Assembly: GCA_029209985.1 (NCBI GenBank)
Contig: JARGNZ010000001.1
Location: forward strand, 167,827 to 231,826
Reading direction: 5' to 3'
From: Parvibaculaceae bacterium
Lineage (GTDB): Bacteria > Pseudomonadota > Alphaproteobacteria > Parvibaculales > Parvibaculaceae
Length of the DNA: 64,000 nt
Each line of letters starts with the position of its first letter. Position 1 is the stretch's first letter. A program made the position numbers and the translations under genes. Below are positions 1,538 to 40,739 of the stretch, piece after piece. The notes beneath the pieces are model-generated. The model did no database searches and was not told where the DNA came from. It saw only the letters and a list, made by a program, of their open reading frames with translations.

Positions 1538-3754
1538 TTATTCGTTGATGTCTGGTGCCGCCATATAGGTTGGGAACCAGCCCTCGTAGGCTTGTGTTAG
1601 GCTTGCCAAGGATATGGGGGCTGAGCCTTCGAGTTTCAAATCCCCTTGTGCTGTTTGGCCAATTTGGCTGGCAGGCACACCGGCAGCTTTTGCGTCAGCC
1701 AAGAAGGCGTCGGCAGCTTGGGCGGGAAGGGTGACGATGTAGCGGGCTTGGTCTTCACCAAATGCCCAGCCTTGCAGGGGCACATCGGCATTTGGTGTGA
1801 TGTGCGCGCCGATTTGACCGGCAATGGCCATTTTGGCTAAAGCAACCAAGAGGCCACCATCTGAAACGTCATGAGTAGCTGTTAGGCGACCTGCTTGAAT
1901 GGCGTCCCGCACAAATGCGCCGTGTGCTTTTTCTGCGGCCAGGTCAACTGTTGGCGGTGTGCCTTCGTTGCGGCCTAATACGTCGCGCAGGTAAGTGGAG
2001 CAGCCAAGGTGCCCCTCTGTTTTACCAATAACAATGATTGCCTCACCGGCTTGTTTGAAGGAGATGCTCATGGACTTATTAATGTCCTCAAGCAAACCCA
2101 CACCGCCGATGGCGGGTGTGGGCAAAATACCTTCGCCGTTGGTCTCGTTGTAAAGGGAGACATTGCCGGACACGATTGGGAAGTCCAATGCAAGGCAGGC
2201 TTCGCCGATGCCTTCGATGCAGCCCACAAGTTGGCCCATAATGTCGGGTTTCTCAGGGTTGCCAAAGTTAAGGTTGTCGGTTGCTGCAAGCGGCAGTGAA
2301 CCTGTCGCTGTTAGGTTGCGCCAGCATTCAGCAACGGCTTGTTTGCCGCCCTCAATGGGGTCTGCCACGCAGTAGCGCGGTGTGACGTCGACTGCGAAGG
2401 TGAGACCCTTTTTCTCATTGCCGTCAACGCGGACCACGGCAGCGTCACCACCGGGGCCTTGTTTGGTGTTGCCTTGAATGAGTTGGTCGTATTGCTCCCA
2501 TACCCAGCGACGTGAAGAGAGCTGGTGCGATCCGATCATGTCGATCAAGGTTGCACCAATGTCTTTGGGAGCTGGGACGTCATGTGTCGCAATGGGGGTG
2601 CGGTTTGGTGTTGGAATCGAAGGGCGATCGTATTCGGGGGCTTCGTCACCGAGTTCTTTAATTGGCAGGTTGGCCATTTCTTCGCCGTGACGGAAAACGC
2701 GGAAGCGTAGGTCGTCGGTGGTTTTACCCACAACAGCAAAAGAGAGGTCCCATTTTTCAAACACGGCTTCAGCTTCAGCCTGCTTTGATGGATCGAGCAC
2801 CATGAGCATGCGCTCTTGGCTTTCAGACAACATCATTTCATAGGCGGTCATGCCTTCTTCGCGGCACGGCACCATGTCGAGGTTCAGCTCAACACCCAGA
2901 TTTCCTTTTGCGCCCATTTCCACAGCAGAACAGGTCAGGCCAGCGGCCCCCATGTCTTGAATGGCAATCACGGCTCCGGTTTTCATCAGCTCAAGGCAGG
3001 CTTCGAGCAGCAGCTTTTCTGCAAAGGGGTCGCCAATTTGAACGGTAGGACGCTTTTCCTCTGAATCGTCATCAAATTCAGCAGAGGCCATGGTTGCGCC
3101 GTGAATACCGTCGCGGCCTGTTTTAGAGCCAAGGTACACGATGGGCAGGCCCACGCCTTTGGCTTCGGATAAGAAGATACCGTCTGCTTTGGCAAGGCCG
3201 GCTGCAAAGGCATTGACCAAGCAGTTGCCGTTGTAGGATGGATCGAAGTTTACCTCGCCACCTACAGTGGGGACGCCAAATGAATTGCCGTAGCTGCCGA
3301 CACCTTCGACAACGCCCGATACGATGTGGCGGGTTTTTTCGTGGTCTGGTGCCCCAAAGCGTAAGGCATTGAGGGCTGCAATTGGGCGGGCGCCCATGGT
3401 GAAGACATCACGTAGAATGCCGCCGACACCAGTTGCCGCACCTTGCACTGGAGAGATATAGGAAGGGTGATTGTGGCTTTCCATTTTGAAGACCACAACG
3501 TCGCCGTCACCGATATCTACAACGCCCGCGTTTTCGCCGGGGCCGACAAGCACGCGCTCGCCTTTGGTTGGGAGGGTGCGGAGCCATTTTTTGGAAGACT
3601 TGTAGGAACAGTGTTCGTTCCACATCGCAGAATAGATACCCAATTCCGTGATGGTCGGCACGCGGCCTGTCAGTTCCAAAATGCGGGCGTATTCATCTGG
3701 CTTGAGGCCGTGTTCGGCGATCAATTCAGGAGTGATTTCTACAGCGTTTGACAT
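1538..3754 (-). CDS. purL: phosphoribosylformylglycinamidine synthase subunit PurL
   Basis: The 738-residue synthetase subunit of the three-part FGAM synthase, which converts FGAR, ATP and glutamine-derived ammonia to FGAM in purine synthesis. It is the short PurL that needs PurS and PurQ, both encoded just upstream. Visible marks are the N-terminal [18 protein letters not shown], the [20 protein letters not shown] segment, KMESHNHPS (ATP/Mg binding), the first AIRS domain, and [10 protein letters not shown] in the second half. The start overlaps the purQ stop by one base (TAATG), which suggests translational coupling and fixed subunit ratios. Confidence 0.98.
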
Positions 3755-30814: not shown

Positions 30815-31540
30815 TCATAATTTAAGCGATTTAGGACGTCTTGGCCGAGTTTTGCCCATTTGCCGCAACACCAAGCCTTTGACCTGCACATCATCGCCAG
30901 ACTTATCGAGGAAAACTGGCGCGTCGTATTTCGGATTGGTTGAGTCGGGCCACAACTCAGGGCCGTTTGATGTGAGTCTGAGTCTTTTTATAGTCGTTTC
31001 GATTTCAGAGCCACCATGACGGCGCGTTTCGACGACAACATAGTCACCGTCCTCTAAGTCGATCCCGGCGTTAATATCAACGCAAATTGCGTAATCGCCG
31101 TCTTTTATGAAGTTATCGACCGAATCACCAATGACTTTTAGCGCAAATTGGGGCACGTCTCTATAGTCTTGGTCGCCCGGCACAACTTGGCCTTTTTTCT
31201 TAATTTCTTCTGCTATATCCCTGCTCACCCAACACCCCCCTTGCACGTTGCCTATTAAAGGTACACTAAAGGTTGTAATTGGGGAGCCTAAATTAGGATT
31301 ATTAATGTCGCTCATTGGGCGAGATTGTGGCGCGCCACGCTCTCTAAGCTCGCTCTCATTAACGCCGAGCAATCTCGCAAGATCATGTCTCACCTGCTCC
31401 GGCAATACTTTGGGGCTGCGTTTCTGGCCAATATACTGAGATAAGTAGGCAGAAGCCTTGCCAACATCCTTTGACAGGCTGTTAAGGCTCTTGCCTTGCT
31501 CCAACGCGAGTCGGGCTATTTTTTCCCTCGGCGATTCCAT
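30815..31540 (-). CDS. prophage repressor, helix-turn-helix plus S24 (LexA/CI-like) domain
   Basis: A 241-residue CI-like repressor. The XRE-type helix-turn-helix covers about residues 6-60 (SLNSLSKDVGKASAYLSQYI). The S24 domain carries the catalytic Ser in KVIGDSVDNFIKDGDYA and Lys in ETTIKRLRL. At the usual Ala-Gly or Cys-Gly cleavage point the sequence reads GNVQGGCWV, a Gly-Gly, so SOS-type self-cleavage is uncertain. The ATG at 31540 follows AAGGTG. Divergent from the Cro-like gene across an operator. Confidence 0.92.
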   Translation of the reverse strand: MESPREKIARLALEQGKSLNSLSKDVGKASAYLSQYIGQKRSPKVLPEQVRHDLARLLGVNESELRERGAPQSRPMSDINNPNLGSPITTFSVPLIGNVQGGCWVSRDIAEEIKKKGQVVPGDQDYRDVPQFALKVIGDSVDNFIKDGDYAICVDINAGIDLEDGDYVVVETRRHGGSEIETTIKRLRLTSNGPELWPDSTNPKYDAPVFLDKSGDDVQVKGLVLRQMGKTRPRRPKSLKL

Positions 31541-31592
31541 TTTTGCACCTTGTATAAAAGCGGGCCAGAAGGCAATTAGGAAGTTTCCTGCG

Positions 31593-31614
31593 CAATGTGT
31601 GAAATTGCACATTG
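31593..31614. promoter_or_regulatory. operator between repressor and Cro-like gene
   Basis: Inverted repeat CAATGTG (31593-31599) and CACATTG (31608-31614) with an eight-base spacer. The right arm overlaps the -35 box of the rightward promoter. The motif shares TGTG with the nonamers at the leftward promoter. Confidence 0.65.
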
Positions 31615-31640
31615 ACGCCGTAGGAATTTTCACATAGATT
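31612..31640 (+). promoter_or_regulatory. rightward early promoter, probably leaderless
   Basis: -35 TTGACG (31612-31617), 17-base spacer, -10 TAGATT (31635-31640). The expected transcription start, about seven bases later, coincides with the ATG at 31648. No Shine-Dalgarno sequence lies before that ATG, so the first mRNA may be leaderless. Confidence 0.6.
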
Positions 31641-35575: not shown

Positions 35576-35921
35576 GACGACCTTTCACGGCATTACAAAA
35601 ATACAGATCGACGCCATACAAAAGAGGTTGGCGGAGAGCGAAGAGGAGGTCAAAAGGCGACTAAAGCAAGAGTTTTCTAAAAAACCCCACAACACCACAA
35701 AGGAGATGAACATGAAGGTTGAGTTGAAAGAAGAAGAGAAAGTTGAACGCGAATACCCGTGGCTTGGAGAGTCAAAGGAAGGTTCCATCGTTCTCTTCGT
35801 TTCTTGGGGTAGTGGAGTTGCACTTAAACATTCTATCCACCCGAAAGGAGAGTTTCTGAAATGTTGGGATATGAAATTCTTCACCCCCTTCAACGGCGAG
35901 GTAGTGCTTAGCAATGAATAA
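35568..35921 (+). CDS. hypothetical phage protein with two possible starts
   Basis: A 117-residue frame. The first 48 residues are a charged helix (IDAIQKRLAESEEEVKRRLK). A strong AAGGAG at 35699-35705 precedes the in-frame ATG at 35712, which would give a 69-residue protein covering the compact domain (REYPWLGESKEGSIVLFVSW). The gene may give two products or only the short one. Overlaps neighbours by eight bases on each side. Confidence 0.55.
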   Translation: MDETTFHGITKIQIDAIQKRLAESEEEVKRRLKQEFSKKPHNTTKEMNMKVELKEEEKVEREYPWLGESKEGSIVLFVSWGSGVALKHSIHPKGEFLKCWDMKFFTPFNGEVVLSNE

Positions 35922-36918
35922 GCGCCTGGTCTTCTACAATGAAAACGACCCAAAGGCCGCGGCGTGGCTGAGAGAGTTAATCAAAGCAGGATTGATTGCG
36001 GAAGGTATTGTTGATGAGCGAGACATTAGAGACATTAGGCCAGATGAATTGGTTGGATTTACCCAATGTCACTTTTTCGCCGGAATTGGAGGCTGGTCCC
36101 TTGCCCTCCGACTTGCAGGATGGGCCGACGACAGGCCAGTCTGGACGGGGTCGTGCCCCTGCCAACCTTTCAGCGCGGCAGGCCGAGGAAAAGGGGTTGC
36201 TGATGAGCGGCACCTATGGCCCCACTGGTTCCATCTTGTCCAAGAGTGCCAGCCTCCAATCGTCTTTGGCGAGCAAGTTGCGTCAAAAGACGGCCTTGGG
36301 TGGCTCGACGTTATACAAGCGGACTTGGAAGCTACGGGATACGCCGTCGGGGCGGCAGATTTGTGCGCTGCGGGCCTCGGCGCTCCGCATATCCGGCAAC
36401 GGCTCTGGTTTGTTGCTGAAACCGTGGGCGACACCAACCGTGAGGGACCACAAGGACGGTTCGGGGTGTCCGAACGTGCCAGTAAACAGCCTGTTGGGCC
36501 GCGAGGTCTGGGTGACGGGCTGGCCGACGTGCAAGGCGCGGAATGCGAACGCCCCGAGCATACACGGGCAGGGAGGGCAGGACCTTCAAACGGTGGCGAC
36601 GATGCTAGCGGGCTGGCCGACCACCAGTTGCAGCAACGATCGAGCCGCACGGCCAGCGATAATGAAGAGGGCGGACGGGACCAAGAACCAACAGCGCTTG
36701 CAGGATTTTGCAGCGATAGCCGGACCGGCCCGACTAACGGCTTTTGGGGAGCTGCTGACTGGCTCCACTGCCAAGATGGAAAGTGGCGGCCCGTTGAACC
36801 CGGAACATTCCCGCTGGCTCATGGGATACCCGGTCGAGTGGGGCAGTTGCGGGGCTACGGCAATGCAATCGCTCCCCCGGTCGCGCAGACGTTCATAGAG
36901 GCGTGCATGGAGATTTAG
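35914..36918 (+). CDS. DNA (cytosine-5) methyltransferase
   Basis: A 334-residue C5 methyltransferase. Motif I is HFFAGIGGWSLALRLAGW, motif IV with the catalytic cysteine is GSCPCQPFSAAGRGKG, motif VI is FGEQV (in place of ENV), motif VIII is RQRLWFVAE and motif X is GYGNAIAPPVAQTF. The stretch between VIII and the end (GDTNREGPQGRFG onward) is glycine, arginine and proline rich before FWGAADWLHCQDGKWRPVEP. It probably protects phage DNA from host restriction. A second long gene lies inside it in the +1 frame (36014-36898). Confidence 0.93.
   Translation: MNKRLVFYNENDPKAAAWLRELIKAGLIAEGIVDERDIRDIRPDELVGFTQCHFFAGIGGWSLALRLAGWADDRPVWTGSCPCQPFSAAGRGKGVADERHLWPHWFHLVQECQPPIVFGEQVASKDGLGWLDVIQADLEATGYAVGAADLCAAGLGAPHIRQRLWFVAETVGDTNREGPQGRFGVSERASKQPVGPRGLGDGLADVQGAECERPEHTRAGRAGPSNGGDDASGLADHQLQQRSSRTASDNEEGGRDQEPTALAGFCSDSRTGPTNGFWGAADWLHCQDGKWRPVEPGTFPLAHGIPGRVGQLRGYGNAIAPPVAQTFIEACMEI
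36014..36898 (+). CDS. overlapping-frame protein nested in the methyltransferase gene
   Basis: A 294-residue frame lies wholly inside the methyltransferase gene, shifted by one base. Its ATG has a strong GGAAGG eight bases upstream. The product is not random-looking: LLMSGTYGPTGSILSKSASL, repeats of WATPTVRDHKDG, GWPTCKARN and GWPTTSCSN, and an end LNPEHSRWLMGYPVEWGSC. The G-W-P-T repeats and W-L-M-G-x-P-x-x-W recall a phage protein family that accompanies cytosine methyltransferases, as far as I remember. Long open frames on the other strand here show GC bias alone keeps frames open, so I stay cautious. Confidence 0.65.
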   Translation: MSETLETLGQMNWLDLPNVTFSPELEAGPLPSDLQDGPTTGQSGRGRAPANLSARQAEEKGLLMSGTYGPTGSILSKSASLQSSLASKLRQKTALGGSTLYKRTWKLRDTPSGRQICALRASALRISGNGSGLLLKPWATPTVRDHKDGSGCPNVPVNSLLGREVWVTGWPTCKARNANAPSIHGQGGQDLQTVATMLAGWPTTSCSNDRAARPAIMKRADGTKNQQRLQDFAAIAGPARLTAFGELLTGSTAKMESGGPLNPEHSRWLMGYPVEWGSCGATAMQSLPRSRRRS

Positions 36919-39106: not shown

Positions 39107-39514
39107 ATGGCTGAAAAACTCCAACCAAAGCAGCAAAAGTTTGTCGAACAGTACCTTCTACACGGCAACGCGACACAGGCTGCGTTAGAGGCTGGCTATG
39201 CCAAAGCAAGCGCAGGCCAGATGGGCGCGGAGAACCTTAAAAAGCCTAAGATAGCTGCGGCTATTGCGAAAGAGCAGGCCGAGCGTACGCGGCGTATCCA
39301 TATTGACCTTGATTACGTGTTGCAAAGGCTGGCGATCGAGGCGGAGAGGGAGGGTGAGGGGTCAAGTCATTCGGCCCGTGTTCAAGCCCTTGGCCAGCTT
39401 CGTCAACACTTAGAGATGGCAGGATCGAACCCAGAAGAGGCACCACCTTTGCAAGTGAATGTGACCGTGAACAATCCTGTCGGCGACGTTCGTGTCACTC
39501 GACCTGACGCTTAG
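39107..39514 (+). CDS. terminase small subunit
   Basis: A 135-residue protein that recognises phage DNA for packaging. KLQPKQQKFVEQYLLHGNAT followed by QAALEAGYAKASAGQMGAEN is the terminase small subunit helix-turn-helix. The C-terminal part (HSARVQALGQLRQHLEMAG) is also typical. I use the ATG at 39107; a TTG at 39092 is in frame. It overlaps the large subunit gene by 23 bases. Confidence 0.88.
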   Translation: MAEKLQPKQQKFVEQYLLHGNATQAALEAGYAKASAGQMGAENLKKPKIAAAIAKEQAERTRRIHIDLDYVLQRLAIEAEREGEGSSHSARVQALGQLRQHLEMAGSNPEEAPPLQVNVTVNNPVGDVRVTRPDA

Positions 39515-40739
39515 CGCCCCGCAGAATGTCTTTCTGAATGGGCTTAACACGAAATATAGGGCTTATGTAGGCGGATTTGGCAGCGGCAAAACCTTTGTTG
39601 GCTGCTTGGATTTGGCTTTGTTTGCGGGCAGGCATCCCGGACTTGTGCAAGGATACTTTGGCCCGACATACCCGGCTATTAGGGATATTTTTTACCCGAC
39701 CTTTGATGAGGCCGCATGGAGCCTAGGCTTTAGAACGTCTATTAAATACACTGACAAGGAGGTTGCCCTCTATCGAGGCGCTGCTTATTACGGCACGATC
39801 ATTTGCCGCTCTATGGAGAAGCCCAATACGATTGTCGGCTTTAAGATAGCGCGGGCTTTAGTCGATGAAATTGATACTTTGCCGAAAGACAAGGCGGCAT
39901 TGGCTTGGAATAAGATTGTCGCCCGCCTTCGCTTGGTTGTGCCGGGCGTCGTAAACGGGATTGGGGTTACAACTACACCAGAAGGCTTTTTGTTTGTCTA
40001 TGAGCGTTTTGCAGTGGACCCGCAGCCGTCTTATTCGATGGTGCAGGCGAGTACGTACGAAAACGCAGCTTATCTGCCACCAGACTACATAGACAGCCTG
40101 CTTGAGACGTACCCGGATGAGCTTATTCGGGCGTATCTGGATGGTGATTTCGTCAATCTGACAAGCGGTTCTGTCTACCGTTCTTTCAGCAGGCAGAAAA
40201 ACCATAGCGATGAGGTTATCGCAGAGGGTGAACCGCTTCTGATTGGCATGGATTTTAACGTGGGCAAGATGGCGGCGTGTGTGAACGTGCGGCGCGGGCA
40301 GAATTTTCACTGCGTTGGTGAGATTGTTGGTGGGCTGGACACGCCAAGCGTTATCGAGACAATCAAAGCTGAGCACCCGGATCACGATGTAACCGTTTAT
40401 CCTGACGCCAGCGGCGGGAATACAAGCTCAAAAGGGGCTAGCGTTTCAGACATTGCGCTTTTGCGGGAGGCGGGGTTTAGCGTACTCGCTAAGGCGTCCA
40501 ATCCGCGTGTAAAAGACCGGGTTTTGTCGGTCAACAAAGCCTTCGAGACGGGGCGTTGGTTTGTAAACACGCACCTTTGCAAAGAAACAACTAAGTGCCT
40601 TGAGCAGCAGTCATACGATAAAAACGGCCAGCCCGATAAGAAGTCGGGGGTTGATCACCAGAACGACGCCTTTGGGTATCCAGTTGCATACGAAATTCCA
40701 ATCCTACGGCCTTCGTCAAACGTGAGATTTAATCTATGA
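39492..40739 (+). CDS. terminase large subunit
   Basis: A 415-residue packaging motor and nuclease. The Walker A is YVGGFGSGKTFVG, Walker B with catalytic Glu is RALVDEIDTL, and the nuclease part has MDFNVGKMAACV, VYPDASGGN and HQNDAFGYPV acidic residues. It starts with GTG inside the small subunit gene. The adjacent portal start overlaps its stop (ATGA). Confidence 0.93.
   Translation: MSLDLTLSAPQNVFLNGLNTKYRAYVGGFGSGKTFVGCLDLALFAGRHPGLVQGYFGPTYPAIRDIFYPTFDEAAWSLGFRTSIKYTDKEVALYRGAAYYGTIICRSMEKPNTIVGFKIARALVDEIDTLPKDKAALAWNKIVARLRLVVPGVVNGIGVTTTPEGFLFVYERFAVDPQPSYSMVQASTYENAAYLPPDYIDSLLETYPDELIRAYLDGDFVNLTSGSVYRSFSRQKNHSDEVIAEGEPLLIGMDFNVGKMAACVNVRRGQNFHCVGEIVGGLDTPSVIETIKAEHPDHDVTVYPDASGGNTSSKGASVSDIALLREAGFSVLAKASNPRVKDRVLSVNKAFETGRWFVNTHLCKETTKCLEQQSYDKNGQPDKKSGVDHQNDAFGYPVAYEIPILRPSSNVRFNL

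Follow-up and report, generated by a model that had tools for sequence, protein, structure and literature searches.

The question raised by this locus is whether a long open reading frame lying inside a phage cytosine methyltransferase gene is itself a gene and, if so, what its product would contribute. The window, the whole stretch of DNA analysed here, comprises 64,000 nucleotides from a Parvibaculaceae bacterium (contig JARGNZ010000001.1). The locus has prophage surroundings, with a repressor gene at 30815-31633 on the minus strand, a terminase gene at 39492, a portal gene at 40736 and head and tail genes downstream. Both overlapping genes, and all the motifs and modules described below, lie on the plus strand.

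The two genes and their products

The outer gene (35914..36918; 1005 nt, 334 aa, ATG start) encodes the proposed alpha chain of a C5-cytosine methyltransferase. The inner gene (36014..36898; 885 nt, 294 aa plus stop, ATG start) is read in the +1 frame and encodes the proposed beta chain. Read from the sequence, a weak Shine-Dalgarno-like site, GGAAGG (36000..36005), stands exactly 8 nt before the inner ATG. This is the arrangement given in the preliminary description, and its coordinates were confirmed. In many homologues the inner-frame ATG is preceded by AAAGGAG, which is stronger than the GGAAGG of the window. The true inner start is not fixed, because the stop-to-stop frame also offers possible TTG starts upstream, at 35996, 36008 and 36011, and an internal ATG at 36203.

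The outer protein matched PF00145 with 57 bits (cut-off 22; E 2.8e-15), phrog_363 with E 6.5e-83 and the structures of M.HhaI. It contains motif I (QCHFFAGIGGWSLALRLAG, 36064..36120, aligned with M.HhaI residues 3-32), motif IV with the catalytic Pro-Cys (GSCPCQPFSAAG, 36148..36183), motif VI, motif VIII (RQRLWFVA, 36394..36417, placed by the M.HhaI alignment) and motif X (GYGNAIAPP, 36853..36879). The PCQ of motif IV is found in 36/36 outer homologues and in 0/45 inner ones, and motif X is likewise present in all 36 outer homologues. The motif IX pattern occurs in none of these 36 proteins, and the outer frame also has no conserved recognition region. Thus the earlier statement that the host frame has all methyltransferase motifs has to be corrected, since it carries only I, IV, VI, VIII and X, and motif IX is in the inner frame. 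Outer codons 176-277 (36439..36744) are open and weakly constrained as protein; the constraint on this DNA is that of the inner frame. A segment resembling motifs II and III (YNENDPKAAAWL...VDERDIRDI, 35935-36036) stands ahead of motif I, the order in M.HhaI being I-II-III, and the outer chain seems to be internally permuted relative to M.HhaI. When this segment was searched alone it gave a weak profile match to motifs II-III (E 0.068), in agreement with the full-length alignment.

Profile searches with the inner protein, as had been suggested, were productive in one collection: phrog_31772 (E 9.5e-29) and phrog_1008 (E 4.7e-28) were matched, and Pfam, NCBIfam and PDB sequence searches gave nothing useful. 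The label of both PHROG families is 'DNA methyltransferase', yet the matching inner proteins have no catalytic motifs; it probably stems from the overlapping gene. On the basis of the PHROG matches, of purifying selection and of the phase kept in 80/80 loci, the inner gene is described as an N-terminal domain followed by recognition modules and motif IX. The alignment shows the same order, with a conserved N-terminal part, a variable number of units starting with GW(P/A/T)TP and the segment LNPxHSRWLMGxPxEW. The helix-strand part of the N-terminus (SKSASLQSSLASKLRQ...GSTLYKRTWK...LRAS, 36239..36379) has invariant or near-invariant columns in 45 homologues, and over most of it the local pLDDT is 69-81 in an otherwise poor AF2 model.

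The GW(P/A/T)TP modules are of about 31-37 residues each; the window has three of them, and the arrays contain about 1-6 units. Module 1 (WATPTVRDHKDGSGCPNVPVNSLLGREVWVT, 36425..36517) recurs in unrelated phages. Its 19 equal-length copies have a mean identity of 70% in the inner frame vs 33% in the outer one, and their differences at the inner wobble, middle and outer wobble positions are in the ratio 270:172:122. Module 2 (GWPTCKARNANAPSIHGQGGQDLQTVATMLA, 36518..36610), a GWxT-starting unit for which no close relatives were identified, lies between recurrent modules, and module 3 (GWPTTSCSNDRAARPAIMKRADGTKNQQRLQDFAAIA, 36611..36721) is the same as a module of loci L001, L036, L041, L046 and L134. 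The motif IX-like segment (GGPLNPEHSRWLMGYPVEW, 36785..36841), which includes LNPEHSRWLMGYPVEW, was aligned by hhalign to the corresponding motif IX-like stretch of single-chain phage C5 methyltransferases (prob 96.1, E 3.2e-9), and the motif IX pattern is present in 44/45 inner proteins. An HNH endonuclease appears to be inserted near the inner C-terminal end at one locus (L075, IMG/VR 3300043122_000072, 2113-3519), with the outer frame staying open. The HNH domain (PF01844, E 5.8e-6) was found in 1 of the 45 inner members scanned, and Pfam gave no HNH hit in the inner protein of the window.

Conservation and selection in the two frames

The inner protein was matched in 214 phage records and the outer protein in 356 (tblastn), and a profile search of viral contigs with the inner frame matched at least 600 stretches, of which at least 591 encode a relative. 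Closer relatives from the order of the host were not found (0 in 40 genomes). The methyltransferase is in the same +1 phase at 80/80 loci fetched by the inner-frame profile, and the inner frame is at the identical +1 phase in homologous IMG/VR loci. According to the preliminary description, a second gene would be refuted if the inner frame were interrupted by stops in related phages, and this check did not refute it. Of the 80 loci, 79 have an open inner frame and 78 an open outer one, and none has an open third sense frame (mean 13.4 stops). Of the three antisense frames, one is open at 4/80 loci and the other two at 0/80. Similarly, a set of 66 distinct homologous genes has stops in the +2 frame and in every antisense frame, without exception, across the inner-frame region, and the +1 frame is nearly always open, the commonest residual single stop being the inner gene's own near the end. 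A search for a free-standing inner gene found the overlap kept in all 80 inner-profile loci, and only split-tandem and single-chain relatives turned up. Gene callers often drop the inner gene or let the catalytic gene compete with it.

At three loci, L065, L081 (= L095, Klebsiella michiganensis) and L085, a mid-gene indel shifts both frames together and puts the catalytic part in frame with the modules and motif IX; it could be decay, a sequencing error or a natural fusion. A tandem gene of Lacticaseibacillus phage R9.2 was set aside, its neighbour P0006 having, by eye, neither WPTP nor motif IX features.

The codons of the inner gene begin at outer position 2, so that outer position 1 is the inner wobble position and outer position 3 the outer one. 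Substitution rates by codon position were calculated for 182 pairs at 80-90% identity, which share sequences and are therefore not independent. At outer positions 1/2/3 the rates are 0.208/0.191/0.477 in the N-terminus outside the overlap, 0.082/0.033/0.201 in the catalytic overlap, 0.379/0.158/0.117 after motif VIII and 0.099/0.070/0.113 in the C-terminus. The pattern after motif VIII is the reverse of that of a normal gene and of the catalytic part of the same gene, and this region behaves as an inner-frame gene. Double selection accounts for the odd composition of the outer protein after motif VIII, as the preliminary description had suggested.

The ratios dNN/dNS (inner) and dNN/dSN (outer) were obtained from 17 disjoint pairs, with site classes counted in both frames, for four regions. 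In the non-overlapped N-terminus, which is an internal control, the inner ratio is 1.00 and the outer 0.26. The recognition region gave an inner ratio of 0.29 (0.18-0.41) and an outer ratio of 0.78 (0.65-1.11). In the C-terminus the ratios are 0.58 (0.40-0.84) and 0.41, and in the catalytic overlap 0.57 (95% CI 0.39-0.72) and 0.17, where the inner value could be partly lowered by outer-frame chemistry, second-position changes being harsher. Constraint thus changes frame along the gene; it acts on the outer frame over the catalytic half, and on the inner one from motif VIII onwards to the C-terminus.

Synonymous shuffles of the other frame gave an expectation of 85 outer and 50 inner stops after motif VIII, vs 0 and 3 observed. 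As stops are far below expectation in both frames, both have apparently been kept at full length, and over about 100 codons past motif VIII it is mainly the inner sequence that appears to matter. The same contrast is seen in 170 modules cut from 54 loci, which fall into families recurring in phages of different hosts: equal-length copies have a mean identity of 85% in the inner frame vs 52% in the outer, with the inner value higher in 116/116 pairs. The inner frame is a real gene. Conservation and purifying selection are seen in both frames, in line with the view of the preliminary description that each looks like a real protein, and the motifs are split complementarily between them. The locus is an unusually clear case of long same-strand overlap in prokaryotic viruses, extending over hundreds of codons at hundreds of loci; the passage of selection from one frame to the other can be measured, and each frame has a product that can be interpreted.

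A proposed two-chain methyltransferase

The single-chain relatives indicate what the inner modules may do. In mycobacteriophage Wachhund gp69 and its relatives, one chain contains the catalytic motifs, LLPTP modules, WMMGWPAGW (motif IX) and GNGVVP (motif X), and the PTP modules of these mycobacteriophage methyltransferases are in frame between motifs VIII and IX. The inner modules were aligned with the single-chain modules (hhalign E 2.1e-7) and the outer protein with the stretch of the single chains as far as motif VIII (E 4e-20); judged from these alignments, the modules are homologous to the segment in the recognition position of the single-chain enzymes. In the single-chain genes the rates of the module region are 0.130/0.109/0.258, falling mostly at the methyltransferase wobble position. 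The wobble being normal there, the modules are selected in whichever frame carries them. The AF2 model of a single-chain relative matched M.HhaI (E 9.5e-14), with the catalytic part and the motif IX-X region folded and the modules not confidently folded (residues 164-259, pLDDT below 50). The inner chain alone gave no usable fold (pLDDT 56).

Related arrangements are found in other phages. In Gordonia phage Float294 these parts are divided between two tandem genes (gp62/gp61) that share no more than a few bases. Many single-chain actinophage genes (L102-L133, L092) have a +1 ORF under the catalytic part, with a similar N-terminal domain and PTP modules of its own (353 codons in L122), and in these phages the modules may be shared between two frames.

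We consider it highly probable that the locus encodes a two-chain C5 methyltransferase, in which alpha has motifs I-VIII and X, beta has the recognition modules and motif IX, and the enzyme is assembled in trans. Frame 0 would yield alpha, with catalytic motifs I-VIII plus the C-terminal motif X, and frame +1, with a start inside the alpha gene and a ribosome-binding site of its own, would yield beta, composed of the N-terminal domain, three GW(P)T(P) modules and motif IX. Ordinary C5 methyltransferases have their target-recognition region between motifs VIII and IX, and for this reason beta would be the chain that brings the recognition part. Beta would thereby supply in trans both parts that alpha is without. 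With the recognition region and motif IX in beta and the rest in alpha, the heterodimer would therefore be the simplest working enzyme. The assembled chains would methylate the DNA of the phage, with each module probably accounting for one target, and their biological role would be the protection of this DNA from restriction. Translation of beta from 36014, formation of the heterodimer, correspondence of module and target, and DNA protection are steps that we infer from sequence; the term recognition domain is used on the grounds of position, conservation and modularity rather than of structure.

Programmed +1 frameshifting past motif VIII would give instead a single polypeptide with catalytic part, modules and motif IX. 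Its order of parts would be that of the single-chain relatives, and the indel of L065, L081/L095 and L085 joins the same two frames. Nevertheless, we regard this mechanism as improbable, because the N-terminal half of the inner frame, useless to a fusion, is conserved and selected (inner ratio 0.57 in the catalytic overlap) and because the continuity of the outer frame through the modules is itself selected, as shown by its stop count, with motif X in the outer frame. The good Shine-Dalgarno sequence before the inner start of many homologues also stands against it.

The inner protein might otherwise be an independent partner, such as an enzyme inhibitor, an anti-restriction protein or another phage protein, whose overlap with the methyltransferase is incidental. 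Its lack of a Pfam or NCBIfam match and the modules left unfolded by AF2 would fit such a protein, but it has the motif IX that is missing from alpha, and the same modules are physically within single-chain methyltransferases, so that we give this explanation little credence. The preliminary description had offered both a target-recognition partner and an inhibitor as possible roles; the former is the best supported, and the latter finds no support given motif IX and the single-chain modules. That the inner frame is only a non-coding shadow cast by a G+C-rich, conserved methyltransferase gene, with some inner residues forced by conserved outer ones and stops less frequent at 62% G+C, is hardly credible and was refuted by the codon-position rates, the synonymous shuffles and the disjoint-pair selection ratios, because a shadow cannot exceed its source in conservation and past motif VIII the inner frame is much the better conserved (all 116 module pairs), has the inverted wobble signal and shows few of the expected stops.

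Within the two-chain enzyme, each GW(P)T(P) module of about 35 residues might be a separate target-recognition unit, with specificity changed by gain, loss or swap of modules and the outer frame serving there as an open, little-constrained linker; we see this proposal as evenly balanced. Whole modules differ between relatives whose catalytic parts exceed 96% identity, and these differences look like cassette exchange. If the proposal is true, the repertoire of specificities would be written out of frame inside the enzyme's own catalytic gene, in phages of Proteobacteria, in Paenibacillus phages as a nested gene, and with related forms in actinobacterial phages. Methylation specificity of a phage could then be read, and possibly predicted, from its string of modules. 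The two-chain reading also offers a testable function for phrog_1008 and phrog_31772, which PHROGs labels only 'DNA methyltransferase'.

Comparison with known systems

Multispecific C5 methyltransferases of Bacillus phages (SPbeta, SPR, phi3T, H2) carry several short recognition units on one catalytic core. These enzymes are single chains read in one frame, unlike the pair in the window. Wachhund gp69 and its relatives share with the pair in the window the catalytic part, the kind of PTP modules and motifs IX and X, all in one frame, but beneath their catalytic part there is still an additional +1 ORF containing similar modules.

Nested pairs have been annotated before. Phage K1H has the same pair, ORF28 ('Mte8-like') inside ORF29 ('C-specific methylase'), in records that give no mechanism; Paenibacillus phage Diva has it as gp50, 'g49 internal gene', as annotation only; and both genes of the pair in Xanthomonas phage PhiXhv-5 were annotated by the depositors, again without a mechanism. 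An incomplete literature search found no paper describing the phage overlap and none tying it to a two-chain mechanism, a frame hand-over or a module array, and the papers on Paenibacillus phages contain no discussion of the nested gene. The inner-frame HNH of L075 recalls the hidden HNH of the 'ShiLan' type in mycobacteriophage methylases (PMC11855218), of which Pfam gave no trace in the inner protein of the window.

Split C5 methyltransferases provide the closest comparison. The two chains of M.AquI complement each other to one enzyme, the small chain carrying half of the variable region together with motifs IX and X (PMC3404938). The pair in the window differs from M.AquI in that its motif X belongs to the outer frame (36/36 outer homologues), and the Float294 pair is closer to the M.AquI split than the window is.

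M.EcoHK31I, whose target is YGGCCR, reportedly belongs to a bacterial restriction-modification system, and its small-chain gene is said to be nested within the large-chain gene in another reading frame. In PMC3404938 it is described as a two-polypeptide C5 methyltransferase with motifs I-VIII and X in the large chain and motif IX in the small chain, and the predicted TRD is placed in the large chain. The pair in the window divides the same motifs between a large and a small chain in the same way, and its small-chain gene is likewise nested in another frame. Unlike M.EcoHK31I, this pair has conserved candidate TRD modules in the small-chain frame, where the outer dNN/dSN is 0.78, and it lies in a prophage, in whose partly searched neighbourhood no restriction enzyme was identified. 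This suggests that the recognition region of such enzymes is in the frame of the small chain, contrary to the placement proposed for M.EcoHK31I, provided that the two systems are homologous. The motif split of the M.EcoHK31I type and the annotations of nested pairs were thus already known, and what our analysis adds is the assignment of roles to the two chains, the evidence that selection acts on each frame and the shuffling of modules.
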